DNA of 64,000 bases from Oribacterium sinus (GTDB taxonomy: Bacteria; Bacillota; Clostridia; Lachnospirales; Lachnospiraceae), in assembly GCF_014202695.1 (NCBI RefSeq), contig NZ_JACHHH010000010.1:1-64000 (forward strand), written 5' to 3'. How positions within the stretch are numbered: position 1 is the first letter of the stretch; each line of letters begins with the position of its first letter. Shown here in pieces: positions 50,642 through 58,400 of this stretch. The translations under genes and the position numbers were made by a program. A model generated the notes under the pieces. It was not told the origin of the DNA. It saw only the letters and a list, made by a program, of their open reading frames with translations, and did not search any database.

Positions 50642-50677
50642 CTTTTGTCTATACTTTTGATAGCAAATAGACAAAAG
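50642..50677 (+). promoter_or_regulatory. inverted repeat that reaches into a ribosome binding site
   Basis: CTTTTGTCTA (50642-50651) and TAGACAAAAG (50668-50677) are perfect 10-bp arms around a 16-base loop. The right arm covers the first bases of the ribosome binding site AAAAGGAGG of the wall-binding protein gene. The hairpin could hide the site in the mRNA, or the repeat could be an operator. Confidence 0.5.
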
Positions 50678-50686
50678 GAGGTTTCT

Positions 50687-51643
50687 ATGAAAGCTAAATC
50701 ATTTTTAAAAGGAATGGCAGTGTTTATGAGTATTATGGCGGTCTCCGCATTTTCCGCCTTTGCCGCAGGAAACAAGGCAGAAATCGGATCGGTGAATTTA
50801 CAGATTGACAGTTCGGACATCGAAATCGGGTCGGCTGCAAAGAAGATTTCCGTAAGTAGCGGTGATGACGGCTTCACCATTCAAAATGATGAAGGAACCG
50901 CTTTGAATATGCAGGGAAATGTTTGGAAAAGTAACACGACTCCCCAGTTCAAGGTGATTTTAAAGGCGGATTCCGAGCATAAGTTCAACACCAACAATTT
51001 AAAGACTGCGAATTTTTATAAATTTAGCGGAGCTGAGGTAGGATTTGTAAAGGCTACAGGTACTGCAAATTCCATCACCCTCACCATCAAAACCAAGAAG
51101 CTGAAGGCAAATCCCGGTGACTTGACAGTAGGAGATGTAAGCTGGAGAGATGAAAACGGTGTGGCAGAATGGTCCGGGGTGGATAATGCGGAAAAATATC
51201 TGGTAAAGCTCTATAGAGGAAGTCAGTTTATCACCAGCGGAGAAACTACCGGAACCAGCTATGATTTTCGCTCTGCGATTACCCAGAACGGAAACTACAG
51301 CTACAAGATTAGAGCCTATGCTTACGGAAGCTATGGAGACTGGGTAAGCTCCGAAGAACTGGAGATGAGAGCAAGCTCTTCTCAAGGCGGTACGGAGAAT
51401 GGACGTTGGATTTTAGATGCAAATGGTTGGTGGTTCTTAAATCCGGACCGTTCTTATCCTGCCAATACTTGGAAGATGATTAACGGAAAGTGGTATTATT
51501 TCAATAAGTCCGGCTATATGAAGACCGGTTGGGTACAGACCAACGGAATTTGGTATTATCTTGGTGCAGACGGTGCGATGCTCAGCAATACCAGAACACC
51601 GGACGGCTATTATGTAAATCAAAGTGGAGCATGGGTAGCGTAA
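50687..51643 (+). CDS. secreted protein with FN3-like domain and choline-binding-type wall repeats
   Basis: 318 residues. The signal peptide ends near AFSAFAAG (about 27). A beta-rich domain (30-150) and an FN3-like domain (about 155-240, DVSWRDENGVAEWSGVDNAE, then YSYKIRAYAYGSYGDW) precede about four 20-residue wall-binding repeats (GRWILDANGWWFLNPDRS, INGKWYYFNKSGYMKTGWVQ, NGIWYYLGADGAM). These aromatic repeats bind choline or related wall polymers. The AAAGGAGG site is strong, but see the inverted repeat over it. Confidence 0.88.
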   Translation: MKAKSFLKGMAVFMSIMAVSAFSAFAAGNKAEIGSVNLQIDSSDIEIGSAAKKISVSSGDDGFTIQNDEGTALNMQGNVWKSNTTPQFKVILKADSEHKFNTNNLKTANFYKFSGAEVGFVKATGTANSITLTIKTKKLKANPGDLTVGDVSWRDENGVAEWSGVDNAEKYLVKLYRGSQFITSGETTGTSYDFRSAITQNGNYSYKIRAYAYGSYGDWVSSEELEMRASSSQGGTENGRWILDANGWWFLNPDRSYPANTWKMINGKWYYFNKSGYMKTGWVQTNGIWYYLGADGAMLSNTRTPDGYYVNQSGAWVA

Positions 51644-51698: not shown

Positions 51699-51727
51699 TT
51701 GACAGAGAAATAAGCCTATGGGATAAT
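51699..51727 (+). promoter_or_regulatory. promoter of the ilv leader and ilvB operon
   Basis: A perfect TTGACA and GATAAT with a 17-base spacer, 31 bases before the leader ORF. Confidence 0.75.
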
Positions 51728-51757
51728 TCCTTCATATTTTTCAAGGAGGAAAGGGTT

Positions 51758-51853
51758 ATGCAGAACATTTGGCTGGCAATTATTATGATTCTTGCAGTCA
51801 TTATTGTCTTACACGATAATGTTTGTTTGCGTAACGCCACTTTTGAAAGATAA
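51758..51853 (+). CDS. 31-residue Ile/Leu/Val-rich leader peptide of the ilvB operon
   Basis: A short ORF with a strong AAGGAGG site. It encodes MQNIWLAIIMILAVIIVLHD and then NVCLRNATFER; half of the residues are Ile, Leu or Val, concentrated in codons 8-18. It lies between a good promoter and a terminator hairpin just ahead of ilvB, as in attenuator leaders of branched-chain amino-acid operons. Stalling on the Ile/Val/Leu codons would free the segment 51829-51837 to pair with the terminator. A small membrane protein is the alternative reading. Confidence 0.7.
   Translation: MQNIWLAIIMILAVIIVLHDNVCLRNATFER
51829..51837 (+). promoter_or_regulatory. candidate antiterminator strand (GCGTAACGC)
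   Basis: Perfectly complementary to GCGTTACGC at 51882-51890, the tip of the terminator hairpin. It lies in the leader ORF 17 bases after the last Ile/Val/Leu-rich codon, so a ribosome stalled on those codons would leave it free. Confidence 0.55.
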
Positions 51854-51872
51854 AGACATGATTTGAGCCTTT

Positions 51873-51904
51873 AGCCTTACAGCGTTACGCTGTAAGGCTT
51901 TTTC
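51873..51904 (+). terminator. attenuator terminator before ilvB
   Basis: AGCCTTACAGCG (51873-51884) and CGCTGTAAGGCT (51888-51899) form a perfect 12-bp stem with a TTA loop, followed by TTTTTC. ilvB starts 19 bases later, so the operon can only be expressed by readthrough. Confidence 0.8.
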
Positions 51905-51922
51905 AATGAAACGGGAGAGAAA

Positions 51923-53569
51923 ATGAAATTATCAGGGGCAAGGCTATTAATTGAAGAGTTGATTCATCAGGGGGTGGATACCGTATTCGGCTATCCCGGA
52001 GGCGCAGTTTTACAGATTTATGATGAGCTGTATAAGTGTAAGGATCGGATTCATCATGTTCTTACCGCCCATGAGCAGGGGGCAGCCCATGCTGCAGACG
52101 GCTATGCCAGAGCCAGTGGTAAGGTTGGCGTGGTTATTGCGACTTCCGGTCCGGGAGCTACGAATCTGGTAACGGGCATTGCCAATGCTTATCTGGATTC
52201 CGTTCCTATGGTGGCCATTACCGGCAATGTAGCCACGGAAGCACTGGGAAGAGACAGCTTCCAGGAGGTGGATATCGTATCCATTACCCAGCCTGTGGTG
52301 AAGCATAACTTCATGGTAAAGGATGTTACGGAGCTGGAGCAGACGATTAAAGAGGCTTTTCAAATTGCCAATTCCGGAAGAAAAGGTCCGGTACTTATTG
52401 ATATCCCTAAGGACGTACAGATTAGTGAATGTGAATATGGAGTAGCCGTTCTTCCGAAGATGCCGGATAAGCCGAAGCTTCCCTATGATCAGGAAGGGGT
52501 TATTGCCTTACTGAGTCAGGCGAAGAAACCATTAATTTATGCCGGTGGAGGTATTACGGCGGCTAAGGCGGAGAAAGAGCTGATTGCCTTGGCGGAGAAG
52601 CTGAATATTCCGGTTACCGTCAGTATTATGGGAAGGACAGCATTTCCCGACTCTCATCCCTTGAGTCTTGGTTTGGTGGGAATGCACGGAAGCTATGTGG
52701 CGGCAAAAACCCAGTCGGAATGTGATGTTTTGCTTGCTTTAGGAGTTCGTTTTTCCGATCGTGCCACCGGAAATATTGCCCGGTATACCCAAAATTGTAA
52801 AGTCATTCATGTAGACATCGATAAGGCGGAAATCGGGAAGAACATAAGTCCGGATTATTCCGTACAAGGAGATGTGAAGAAGTGGATTAAAGAAATTCTT
52901 CCAAAGTTGAAGGAGCAAAAGCATCCTAAGTGGTGGGAAGAAATCCATGGCTTCGAAAAAACCAAGAGTAAAGTGGAGGGAGATTTCCATCCCAAGCATA
53001 TCTTGGAGACTTTACGGAAGTATACGGAAGACGATACAGTGGTAGCTACCGATGTGGGACAGCATCAGATGTGGACAGCACAGTACTATCGTTTTGAAAA
53101 AGGCAGAACCTTCCTAAGCTCCGGCGGATTGGGAACCATGGGGTATGGCTTAGGGGCAGCCATCGGAGCTTGTTTTGGAAGAAAGAAGGCTCATACCGTT
53201 TTAATTACTTCCGAGGGTTCCTTCGGCATGAACTGTAACGAGCTTTGTACAGCGGTTCATGAAAATCTACCGATTACCATTATTCTGATGAACAATCGAG
53301 TTTTGGGTATGGTGAGACAGTGGCAGACAGCCTTTTTCGGAAAGCGTTATTCCGAAACGGTTTTGGATAGAAGCACGGACTTTGTAAAGCTGATGGAAGC
53401 TTACGGCGGAAAAGGCTTTAATGCAAAAAATTGCAAGGAGCTGGAAGACGCTTTAAAGGAAAGAGAGCATTATAACGGACCAATATTGATTAATTGCTCC
53501 ATTAATCCGGATGAAAAGGTGCTTCCGATGATTCCTCCCGGAAAATCCGTGGATGATATTATTTTATAA
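51923..53569 (+). CDS. ilvB: acetolactate synthase large subunit
   Basis: 548 residues with the three ThDP-enzyme domains. Catalytic Glu51 is in TAHEQGAAHAADGYARASGK; FQEVDIVSIT, LGLVGMHGS and GMVRQWQTAFFGKRYSET are typical of anabolic AHAS. It joins two pyruvates, or pyruvate with 2-oxobutyrate, for valine, leucine and isoleucine. The Mg/ThDP motif, normally GDGS, reads SEGS at 430-433, an Asp-to-Glu change. It is cotranscribed with ilvN and ilvC and controlled by the upstream attenuator. Confidence 0.94.
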   Translation: MKLSGARLLIEELIHQGVDTVFGYPGGAVLQIYDELYKCKDRIHHVLTAHEQGAAHAADGYARASGKVGVVIATSGPGATNLVTGIANAYLDSVPMVAITGNVATEALGRDSFQEVDIVSITQPVVKHNFMVKDVTELEQTIKEAFQIANSGRKGPVLIDIPKDVQISECEYGVAVLPKMPDKPKLPYDQEGVIALLSQAKKPLIYAGGGITAAKAEKELIALAEKLNIPVTVSIMGRTAFPDSHPLSLGLVGMHGSYVAAKTQSECDVLLALGVRFSDRATGNIARYTQNCKVIHVDIDKAEIGKNISPDYSVQGDVKKWIKEILPKLKEQKHPKWWEEIHGFEKTKSKVEGDFHPKHILETLRKYTEDDTVVATDVGQHQMWTAQYYRFEKGRTFLSSGGLGTMGYGLGAAIGACFGRKKAHTVLITSEGSFGMNCNELCTAVHENLPITIILMNNRVLGMVRQWQTAFFGKRYSETVLDRSTDFVKLMEAYGGKGFNAKNCKELEDALKEREHYNGPILINCSINPDEKVLPMIPPGKSVDDIIL

Positions 53570-53583
53570 GGAGGGGAGGAAAG

Positions 53584-53835
53584 ATGAAGAAGTTTACCAT
53601 TGACCTTTTTGTGAATAACCGCTTCGGCGTTTTGAATCGGATTACAGGACTTTACTGTAAAAGAGCTTACAATATTGAATCTATCCAAGCCGGCCCTACA
53701 GAAATTCCCGGGTGTACCAAGATTGAAATCGTTTCCACCGGGGATGACTATATGCGTACTCAGGTAATTTCTCAGTTGGAGAAATTATATGACGTACGGA
53801 AGGTAGAGCTTCTTTCGGAGATGGATGGTGAATAA
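53584..53835 (+). CDS. ilvN: short acetolactate synthase regulatory subunit (ACT domain only)
   Basis: 83 residues. It is one ACT domain (FTIDLFVNNRFGVLNRITGL, RAYNIESIQAGPTE, KIEIVSTGDD) with nothing after it. Most IlvN/IlvH subunits are about 160 residues and have a second domain, as the other small subunit here does. Short forms exist (IlvM, about 85 residues). It should bind the IlvB encoded just upstream and affect feedback inhibition. Confidence 0.9.
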   Translation: MKKFTIDLFVNNRFGVLNRITGLYCKRAYNIESIQAGPTEIPGCTKIEIVSTGDDYMRTQVISQLEKLYDVRKVELLSEMDGE

Positions 53836-54969
<1,134 letters not shown>

Positions 54970-54982
54970 TTGCCCTAGGCCA

Positions 54983-55008
54983 GCGGCACATTTTGTGCCG
55001 CTTTTTTT
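54983..55008 (+). terminator. terminator of ilvB-ilvN-ilvC
   Basis: GCGGCACA and TGTGCCGC pair perfectly around TTT, followed by seven T residues. The ilvA start is 23 bases further, so part of ilvA expression may come from readthrough. Confidence 0.85.
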
Positions 55009-56277: not shown

Positions 56278-57912
56278 ATGACAGGAGCTGCTGCCATTGT
56301 AAAATGTTTGGAGTTGGAAAAGGTGGACTTTGTTTTCGGCTATCCCGGGGTAGCGATATGTCCCTTTTATGATAGTTTGGAAGACAGCGAAATCCGTTCC
56401 ATTTTGGTGCGTACGGAACAGAATGCAGCCCACGAAGCCAACGGGTATGCCAGAATCAGCGGAAAGCCGGGGGTCTGTGCGGTAACCTCAGGACCGGGTG
56501 CTACCAACATTATCACAGGAATCGCCACTGCCTTTGCAGACAGTATTCCTTTGGTTGTAATCACAGGACAGGTGGAGAGTGCTTTACTGGGATCCGATGT
56601 ATTCCAGGAGGCGGATATTTGCGGTGCCTGTGAATCCTTTGTAAAATACAGCTATACCGTACGAAATGTAGAGGAAATTCCTAAGATTTTCAAGGAAGCC
56701 TTTCATATTGCCATGACCGGAAGAAAGGGACCGGTTCTGATTGATATCCCTATTGATGTACAAAATGCTTCTCTTCGGAAATTCCAGTATCCGGAGGAGG
56801 TTAAGATGAGAACCTACAAGCCTACGGTACAGGGAAATCCGGTGCAGATTAAAAAGATGTTCCAGAGATTGGCAGCTACAAAGCGTCCTATTCTTTGCGT
56901 GGGCGGTGGCGTACATCTGGCAGATGCTAAGGAGAGGGTTCGGGCATTTTCCAAGAAATTCAATATTCCTGTGGTTTGTACCATGATGGGACTTGGTGTA
57001 ATGGAGGAAAATGATCCCCTTTTCTTCGGTATGGTGGGGAATAACGGAAAGCCCTACGGAAATAAGGCTATGAATCATGCAGACCTTATCATTATGATGG
57101 GCGCCAGAGTAGCAGATCGTTCCATTAGTCAGCCGGACTTGATTACAGATAATAAGACCTTGATTCACATCGACGTGGATCCCGCGGAAATCGGAAAGAA
57201 TGCAGGACCGGAGATTCCATTGGTGGGAGATATTGCCAGCGTGTTGGATGCCTGCCTGGAGGAAGAGGGAGAATTTCATTATTCCTCCTGGATTTCCGAA
57301 TTGGAGAATATTAAGGGAGAAATTCAAAAAGTTCTTCAAAAGAAGAAAGAAGAGGGAATGACTAAAAATCATTTGGTTCATCCCGAATATTTCCTGGAAG
57401 AGCTGAACAAGCAGTTGAATCAGGACGCGGTTTATGTGGCCGATGTAGGACAGAATCAGCTGTGGTCCTGTGCCAATTATCAAATGAAAGACGGGCGCTT
57501 CCTTACTTCAGGCGGTATGGGTACGATGGGATATTCTACGCCGGCAGCTATCGGTGCTTACCTTGCCGATCCGAAGAAGCAGGTGGTGGCAGTTATGGGA
57601 GACGGTTCCTTCCAGATGAGTATGATGGAATTGGCTACCATGAAACAATATAATATCCCCATTAAGCTAATTGTCTTCCATAATGGAGTATTGGGCTTGG
57701 TGCACCAATATCAGCACAAAACCTATCATGACCGTTTCACCATGGTGGATCTTACAGGAAATCCCGACCTTTCCATTTTGGCTAAGGCCTACGGACTTTC
57801 CTATGATGCCATTTCAAAAAATGAGGAAGTTTCTTCTAAAATCACTGCGTTCCTTAGCAAGAAGGAAGGCGGAATTTTAGAAGTGTATATTGACAGTCAT
57901 GAGGTAGTGTGA
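56278..57912 (+). CDS. ilvB: second acetolactate synthase large subunit
   Basis: 544 residues. The catalytic Glu lies in VRTEQNAAHEANGYARISGK. The ThDP motif is standard here (AVMGDGSFQMSMMELA). FQEADICGACESFVKYSY and GLVHQYQHKTYHDR differ from the usual GMVRQWQ loop of the first copy, so substrate preference or regulation may differ. It pairs with the full-length small subunit encoded next. It carries AGGAGGAGAG as ribosome binding site. Confidence 0.92.
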   Translation: MTGAAAIVKCLELEKVDFVFGYPGVAICPFYDSLEDSEIRSILVRTEQNAAHEANGYARISGKPGVCAVTSGPGATNIITGIATAFADSIPLVVITGQVESALLGSDVFQEADICGACESFVKYSYTVRNVEEIPKIFKEAFHIAMTGRKGPVLIDIPIDVQNASLRKFQYPEEVKMRTYKPTVQGNPVQIKKMFQRLAATKRPILCVGGGVHLADAKERVRAFSKKFNIPVVCTMMGLGVMEENDPLFFGMVGNNGKPYGNKAMNHADLIIMMGARVADRSISQPDLITDNKTLIHIDVDPAEIGKNAGPEIPLVGDIASVLDACLEEEGEFHYSSWISELENIKGEIQKVLQKKKEEGMTKNHLVHPEYFLEELNKQLNQDAVYVADVGQNQLWSCANYQMKDGRFLTSGGMGTMGYSTPAAIGAYLADPKKQVVAVMGDGSFQMSMMELATMKQYNIPIKLIVFHNGVLGLVHQYQHKTYHDRFTMVDLTGNPDLSILAKAYGLSYDAISKNEEVSSKITAFLSKKEGGILEVYIDSHEVV

Positions 57913-58400
57913 TGAAAAAAATATATTCTATTTTAGTGGAAAACCAGTCCGGTGTTTTGGCAAAGGTTGCAGGATTGTTCTGGAGAAGATGCTTTAATAT
58001 CGATTCCTTGACGGTAGGAGAAACTGAGGATCATTCCGTTTCCAACATGGTGATTGTCTCCAGCGGCGAGAAAAAGACACTGGAACAGGTGGAAAAGCAG
58101 CTGAATAAAAAGCTGGATATTATTAAGGTTCGTACCTTTACGGAAACACAGGGCATTACCAGAGAATTACTTTTGGTAAAGCTTCGTTATAATCGGGAAA
58201 ACCGAAAAGACATTATGGAAAACTGTCAGATTCTGGGGGCTAAGATTCTGGAGCTTAGTAAGAACCAGATGGTGATTGAAATGTGTGATACTCCGGAAAG
58301 AATCCAGATGTTTCTCGACACTTTAAAGACGGTGAGTATTTTGGAATGTGCCAGAACCGGAACCTTAGCCATGTTAAAGCTGTCGGAAGGAAATGCCTAA
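57912..58400 (+). CDS. ilvH: second acetolactate synthase small subunit (full length)
   Basis: 162 residues from the ATG that overlaps the preceding stop (TGATG), with GAGG 7 nt upstream. The N-terminal ACT domain (SILVENQSGVLAKVAGLFWR, RCFNIDSLTVGETEDHSVSN) is followed by the C-terminal regulatory domain (ITRELLLVKLRYNRENRKDI, FLDTLKTVSILECARTG). It should confer feedback control by valine on its partner. Confidence 0.94.
   Translation: MKKIYSILVENQSGVLAKVAGLFWRRCFNIDSLTVGETEDHSVSNMVIVSSGEKKTLEQVEKQLNKKLDIIKVRTFTETQGITRELLLVKLRYNRENRKDIMENCQILGAKILELSKNQMVIEMCDTPERIQMFLDTLKTVSILECARTGTLAMLKLSEGNA

Follow-up and report, generated by a model that had tools for sequence, protein, structure and literature searches.

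A probable leader-peptide attenuator before ilvB in Oribacterium sinus and its relatives

Is the ilvB operon of Oribacterium sinus controlled through the translation of a short leader peptide, and if so, by what arrangement of RNA strands? In Firmicutes, control of amino acid operons is generally ascribed to the T-box or CodY, and leader-peptide attenuators are few and scattered; in enterobacteria, ilv leader-peptide attenuators (the ilvGMEDA, ilvB and leu leaders) are established. The window analysed here (the whole stretch of 64,000 nucleotides) carries, on its forward strand, ilvB (51923-53569), the acetolactate synthase large subunit, assigned by a profile match (TIGR00118), followed by an 83-aa ORF (53584-53835) without an NCBIfam match at 1e-30, which from its resemblance is a probable small regulatory subunit (ilvN/ilvH-like), and by ilvC (53845-54969), the ketol-acid reductoisomerase, also assigned by a profile match. 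The regulated unit probably ends at an intrinsic terminator predicted 3' of ilvC (54982-55002). About 2.7 kb 3' of ilvB, beyond ilvC and ilvA, another acetolactate synthase large subunit is encoded together with a small subunit of its own (56278-58400).

The absence of a T-box, pointed out in an earlier note on this DNA, was borne out: no match to RF00230 was obtained before ilvB or elsewhere in the window at the gathering score, at which the Rfam families found in the window are four tRNAs only, and neither the amino-acid operon leaders of Rfam 15 nor the ppGpp-type riboswitch matched the window at that score. Rfam searches by E-value over seven congener loci and nine relatives gave sub-threshold matches only; a His_leader match over the leader L165 is of this kind (31 bits against a cut-off of 49, E 0.19). 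In the window's own genome (G000), T-box matches occur at C1:21523, C2:219941 and C11:16995, before pheS, trpE and trpB (downstream genes named by eye; two of the three matches over the cut-off, the trpB one below it), and this genome therefore probably mixes T-box and leader-peptide control.

Between ilvB and the upstream gene for a choline-binding-repeat protein (50645-51643, same direction as the leader), the promoter, ORF and terminator described earlier were recovered on the forward strand. The sigma-70-type promoter (51699-51727) comprises TTGACA (51699-51704) and GATAAT (51722-51727) spaced by 17 nt, with TG before the -10 hexamer; it agrees with the consensus at 11 of 12 positions and is the top-scoring promoter-like site within 50-58 kb of the window, and a comparable TTGACA...TGGGATAAT lies 5' of the leader at L005 and L004. 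A strong Shine-Dalgarno sequence, AAGGAGG (51743-51749; duplex energy with the anti-SD -11.2), precedes an ORF of 31 codons (51758-51853) with the translation MQNIWLAIIMILAVIIVLHDNVCLRNATFER. Ile, Leu and Val make up 13 of its 31 residues (42%) and 11 of the 15 within codons 4-18, so the peptide is rich in these residues as claimed, at slightly below the half that had been given. A predicted intrinsic terminator with a U tract (51873-51903) stands between the ORF and the first gene; its perfect stem of 12 pairs (51873-51899, loop TTA, then TTTTC) ends 23 nt 5' of ilvB. The RNA elements discussed below are strand 1 (51755-51764), which contains the start codon; the hairpin P1 over the Ile-Ile-Val codons (51799-51821; 51799-51806 with 51814-51821), seen in the aligned leaders; strand 2, the antiterminator strand (51829-51837, GCGTAACGC), which lies towards the 3' end of the ORF, with the stop codon 13 nt 3' of it; and strand 3, the terminator tip GCGTTACGC (51882-51890), made of the loop and three closing pairs, the terminator being the pairing 3:4.

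The leader is present in all 13 congeners that have this ilvB, its own genome included. Among 17 congeneric genomes (again with the window's own), 12 hold a full-length ilvB of 65-100% identity, each with the leader, and in a thirteenth (G008) ilvB is split by contig ends and the leader is present; G011, G014, G015 and G016 gave no ilvB match above 51% identity, and no leader was found 5' of the 51% ilvB of G011. Across 397 Lachnospiraceae genomes, ilvB was found at E <= 1e-199 in ten, eight of which have the leader (G000, G001, G035, G064, G079, G243, G295 and G298), while G308 and G408 have none within 700 nt of their close ilvB. G284 and G377 carry the leader at a truncated ilvB. Genus searches placed it in G412; those limited to a single genome gave no R1 match in G413 and no ilvB match in G357. 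A phage search gave no match.

Over the 397 genomes, at least nine matches reached E <= 0.001 with the model R1, eight being leaders; with the broader model R2, at least 15 reached E <= 0.01, of which ten are ilvB leaders, two are Phe-rich ones and three were judged to be non-leaders. In 392 genomes of the order, R2 matched at least 12: two congeners, five ilvB leaders of family f17, a tandem of f16, an ilvB leader of f5 and three non-leaders. These counts are lower bounds, since 6 or 7 candidates per genome were scored, under strict filters, when more than 40 genomes were searched. More diverged ilvB leaders thus occur beyond Lachnospiraceae in six genomes of two families (f17 and f5), with the downstream ilvB named by resemblance and profile-confirmed for L165. 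Weak R1 or R2 matches at L041, L170, L172, L173, L184, L186, L187 and L189 were rejected by eye and left uncounted; at L041 (G244), an ILV-rich ORF of 32 codons with a terminator stands before an IMP-dehydrogenase-like gene and is probably unrelated. An IlvB search of genome contigs found at least 80 relatives (46-55% identity among the matches listed), at whose loci R1 found nothing significant (best L078, E 0.093), and these loci therefore served as background rather than as members. At L078 (Lentisphaerae MAG SUVU01000076.1, 2540-3000), two tandem ILV-rich short ORFs, each with a terminator after it, precede ilvB.

The earlier note had regarded conservation of the ORF as a protein away from ilvB as evidence against attenuation. 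The ORF was found to occur with ilvB, the two exceptions being L168, a tandem pair, and L174 (G503:C5:47163-47366), a second, orphan copy with a terminator and with no same-strand ORF of more than 80 aa within 1.5 kb downstream. A scan for ORFs of 14-45 codons with at least 38% ILV, a Shine-Dalgarno sequence and a terminator starting no more than 85 nt from the stop returned one match in the 64-kb window, namely the ilvB leader, and one in 579,099 bases of background (the 80 other ilvB loci), about 1 kb 5' of its ilvB. In-frame pN/pS of the leader ORF was lowest among six close congeners (0.30), intermediate for eight leaders of other genera (0.48) and highest for seven diverged congeners (0.70), against 0.72-2.24 in shifted frames, which indicates that the ORF is under frame-specific codon selection and probably read. 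Its Ile/Val/Leu content is conserved in relatives, as the earlier note had proposed to check: over a 17-codon core in 21 leaders (near-identical ones included), these residues amount to 68% (Ile 32%, Val 22%, Leu 13%). The leader thus has a short ORF that is apparently translatable and in which codons for the operon's end products abound.

The earlier claim that a 9-nt strand of the ORF is exactly complementary to the terminator tip was correct, GCGTAACGC being the exact reverse complement of GCGTTACGC. The pairing is real; its reach as an antiterminator is narrower than had been supposed, as it takes the tip and loop and, of the stem, only about 2-3 pairs. Where the terminator loop of a congener has 8 nt, GTAAAGC pairs with GCTTTAC, nearly all inside the loop; in other genera, GCGTTATGC pairs with GCATAGCGC, or, with an additional A, GCGTTTTGC pairs with GCAAAAACGC. 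The 10-bp table of strand 2:3 was drawn up with a script that applied one fixed rule, because MAFFT left the tip unaligned across groups, and four near-identical leaders (L008, L011, L013 and L014) were dropped from 22 for the pairing tests. In the 18 representatives, 156 of 180 positions were paired (135.7 +/- 3.9 on permutation), and in the 15 distinct combinations 129 of 150, with 0 of 100,000 permutations reaching the native value in either case; position 7 of these combinations is C-G in five, A-T in four and T-A in six, without mismatch. The duplex energy was -14.6 for native and -11.2 for swapped partners (0 of 20,000 permutations reached native), and permutation within congeners only gave p 0.0003. 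Within the eight-member group of other genera (group B), native partners were not better than swapped ones (p 0.097); this group is low in variation, and a one-position mismatch is kept in five of the eight.

Permutation of partners leaves shared ancestry in, and the identifiable double changes are few but clear: the C-G, A-T and T-A of position 7, GCGATTTG:CAAATCGC (L167) vs GCGTTTGG:CCAAACGC (L169) in family f17, a position 10 that has gone from U-A to C-G in L037, where the terminator stem changes along, and T-A in L040. A second set of ten leaders gave -15.0 kcal/mol for native vs -11.0 kcal/mol for swapped partners (0 of 20,000 permutations); two of its members are tandem copies from one genome, one is a second copy in another and two are Phe leaders, so that it does not amount to ten independent events, and in L164 strand 2 sits 3' of the stop codon, outside the stretch tested. 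The diverged leader L171 (G620, family f5, reverse strand, match 1501-1618; MRSRNIPLNGNNLDLVGVIIFGVIVLDNAVLRCADE), found before ilvB and included in none of the pairing tests, has the textbook position: its ORF end is complementary over 10 nt, exactly, to the terminator 5' arm rather than the tip (CGCCGATGAA with TTCATCGGCG). Tip-binding is therefore the rule in Lachnospiraceae and f17, not everywhere. Conservation of the antiterminator pairing in relatives, a check suggested by the earlier note, was thus found together with compensatory changes. The comparisons point to a conserved alternative pairing incompatible with the terminator; since it overlaps mainly the tip, exclusion of the full stem would follow indirectly.

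The earlier note missed a further strand: in the window leader, the Shine-Dalgarno and start region ties up the antiterminator strand when no ribosome is present. In the minimum-energy fold, 51755-51764 pairs with 51826-51835, and an outer helix joins 51735-51745 with 51840-51852. In 17 leaders (L044, the 5' part of which is missing at a contig end, was left out of the strand 1 tests), strand 1:2 had an energy of -17.8 for native vs -14.6 for swapped partners, with 0 of 20,000 permutations reaching native, and native was better than swapped inside each group (p 0.0013, n=9; p 0.0011, n=8). Both-side changes in the outer helix separate close relatives: TTTGG:CCAAA (L038), TCTGG:CCAGA (L155) and TCAGG:CCTGA (L153). 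The alignment-based count for group B is weak, with several rows misaligned in the outer helix (in 500 shuffles, the paired percentage was reached 12 times and the covariation score 35 times). In the second set of ten leaders, mostly from other families, native was not better than swapped (p 0.27); therefore, strand 1:2 is claimed only for the Lachnospiraceae ilvB leaders, where duplex energies, folding and covariation argue for a pairing that protects the leader in the absence of a ribosome.

Over 20 aligned leaders, 95% of the cells of P1 are paired, with one both-side change (U-A to C-G) and one pair broken in 8 of the 20, and the terminator shows both-side changes in six of ten stem pairs. 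Taken together, P1 and the terminator have 97.5% of cells paired and seven both-side-changed pairs, which 0 of 500 shuffles reach. Against shuffles, the leader folds with z -4.75 when the terminator is included and with a modest z -1.9 without it. When ribosome footprints were imposed in a nested folding model, with the RNA transcribed to 51890, a ribosome at codons 4-6 or 8-9 led to strand 2:3, as did one at codons 15-17 with a second on the start site; no ribosome, a ribosome at the stop, or a stall at codons 15-17 alone led to strand 1:2. The proposal that a ribosome stalled at the Ile/Val/Leu run leaves strand 2 free holds in this model for codons 4-9, and for codons 15-17 only if the start region is occupied. 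For RNA that includes the complete terminator, the equilibrium model favours the terminator in every ribosome state tried; antitermination must therefore be kinetic, decided with the polymerase still near, as is the switch in other attenuators.

Conservation of the parts, covariation of strands 2:3 and 3:4 (and of 1:2 within Lachnospiraceae) and coding selection on the ORF are observed here. They make it very probable that the leader is a ribosome-mediated transcription attenuator which sets ilvB-(ilvN)-ilvC expression according to how much charged Ile-, Val- and Leu-tRNA is available; the classic ilv attenuation put forward earlier is upheld as an attenuator, with an unusual layout. As the ORF is rich in Ile, Leu and Val and the alternative pairings are conserved, the cell probably senses amino acid shortage via ribosome transit of the short ORF. 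With no ribosome, or with one that has finished and gone, strand 2 would lie on strand 1, leader translation would be shut and the terminator would form. With plentiful amino acids, the ribosome would reach the stop, strand 2 would be kept from the terminator and transcription would stop. With Ile-, Val- or Leu-tRNA in short supply, a ribosome would stall at early or middle codons, a second may load behind it and strand 1 would be kept away, so that the free strand 2 would grip the terminator tip as it emerges from the polymerase and, by kinetic competition, readthrough into ilvB would ensue in response to the shortage. That strand 3 is placed at the tip suggests that the effect of strand 2 would be to prevent the hairpin from nucleating.

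The same RNA plan was found with Phe codons before DAHP synthase in two genomes. The leaders L185 (G256, about 1500-1760) and L183 (G339, reverse strand, 1328-1467) have Phe-rich ORFs (MREFLFSAAYFFFYFFGFSFSGF...; ...SYFFFTGSFARTFAGKAF...) and terminators, and in L185 the ORF 3' strand and the terminator pair at 16 positions, wobbles included. The locus L168 of G475 (family f16; match on the reverse strand at 1501-1689 and beyond) has a tandem of two ILV-rich leaders 5' of an SBP_bac_5 oligopeptide-binding protein gene; both leaders include a P1-like hairpin and a terminator. It is conceivable, though on balance doubtful, that all these leaders derive from one ancestral RNA scaffold of the order, in which the ORF 3' end grips either its own ribosome binding site or the terminator loop or tip, and which was re-coded (Ile/Val/Leu before ilvB and the peptide transporter, Phe before DAHP synthase) and tandem-duplicated, its antiterminator blocking hairpin nucleation rather than stealing the 5' arm.

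Other readings of the leader have to be weighed against attenuation by slow decoding. A riboswitch-like leader, in which a bound ligand or protein switches strands 1:2 and 2:3 and the ORF is incidental, would account for the conserved long-range helix and alternative pairings, and riboswitch candidates and ppGpp riboswitches before branched-chain amino acid genes are described elsewhere (excerpts of PMC11109978 and PMC8632094). The frame-specific codon selection and 68% Ile/Val/Leu core, the strong Shine-Dalgarno sequence in the window, the replacement of Ile/Val/Leu codons by Phe where DAHP synthase comes next and the lack of an Rfam riboswitch match in the searches above make this explanation very unlikely. 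It is even less credible that the ORF encodes a small hydrophobic membrane protein, with a terminator that is constitutive or ends an upstream transcript. The peptide is indeed hydrophobic and the 50645-51643 gene lies upstream in the same direction, but a promoter separates that gene from the ORF, the C-terminal part of the peptide is variable and ends early in L010, L013 and L014 (where the RNA strand is retained), the peptide has no Pfam or NCBIfam match and strand 2:3 covaries.

Another reading is a switch driven by an arrest peptide such as TnaC, whose nascent chain stalls the ribosome; here, too, the nascent chain and not slow decoding would be responsible. A run of the type I-[IL]-V-[NS]-I-I-V is common to many leaders, and in seven diverged congeners Ile, Leu and Val positions are not freely exchanged (10 ILV-to-ILV replacements vs 60 ILV-to-other). 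However, part of the run would be kept by RNA pairing alone, since the 5' arm of P1 overlaps it; the run is broken in L003, L005 and L156; and in group B the positions drift among Ile, Leu and Val (44 ILV-to-ILV replacements vs 33 ILV-to-other). An arrest peptide is for these reasons highly improbable, and attenuation by slow decoding of Ile, Val and Leu codons is retained.

As a kind of system, such an attenuator is known, since ilv leader-peptide attenuators are established in enterobacteria, reported in Listeria and supported in Staphylococcus aureus and Corynebacterium. The enterobacterial ilvGMEDA, ilvB and leu leaders share with the present one the control codons, four mutually exclusive strands and a pause-like hairpin; the classic arrangement has strand 1 at the control codons and the terminator 5' arm as strand 3, whereas here these are the Shine-Dalgarno and start region and the tip. 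The remaining comparisons refer to excerpts of the reports cited. The Corynebacterium ilvBNC attenuator (ilvB-II / uORFC-75-1; PMC11857589, PMC11109978, PMC10272879) likewise places an ILV-rich uORF, a terminator, an antiterminator and an anti-antiterminator before ilvB, a likeness of layout, and differs from the present leader, in which the antiterminator is directed to the terminator tip and strand 1 to the leader start site; in the excerpts of PMC11857589 and PMC11109978, this motif is reported from Corynebacterium only. Rli60 of Listeria monocytogenes, before ilvD, is also a leader of a Firmicute with a peptide rich in branched-chain amino acids and ribosome-mediated attenuation, the latter supported by mutants of the RBS, ATG and terminator; it differs in its peptide of 13 residues, its ilvD-led operon and the additional action of CodY in Listeria (PMC5864092). 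The ilvD leader of S. aureus, another Firmicute, shares a Leu-rich attenuator peptide and a terminator, but the antiterminator proposed there binds the poly-U tail, with the hairpin kept whole (PMC5794164), whereas here the partner is the tip. By layout, the Phe leaders L183 and L185 resemble uORFC-13-1 before aroF of Acholeplasma, a Phe-coding uORF with a terminator before DAHP synthase (PMC8632094). His leader peptides are reported in Firmicutes (PMC2965389), and His attenuators are predicted in some Eubacteriales and Erysipelotrichales (PMC9413887). No description of an ilv or DAHP-synthase leader of the source lineage was found in searches of the open-access literature. What appears new, to us at least, is the lineage, together with a strand 1 at the start site, an antiterminator directed to the tip and sister leaders coded for Phe, the last three of which call for experiments.

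The leader can be followed through several families within a single order, with covariation that can be measured, and its start-site strand and tip-binding antiterminator offer a layout that can be tested against the textbook one. Should the Phe version prove to be a true homologue, it would show that codon changes can replace what an attenuator senses while its RNA switch is kept.
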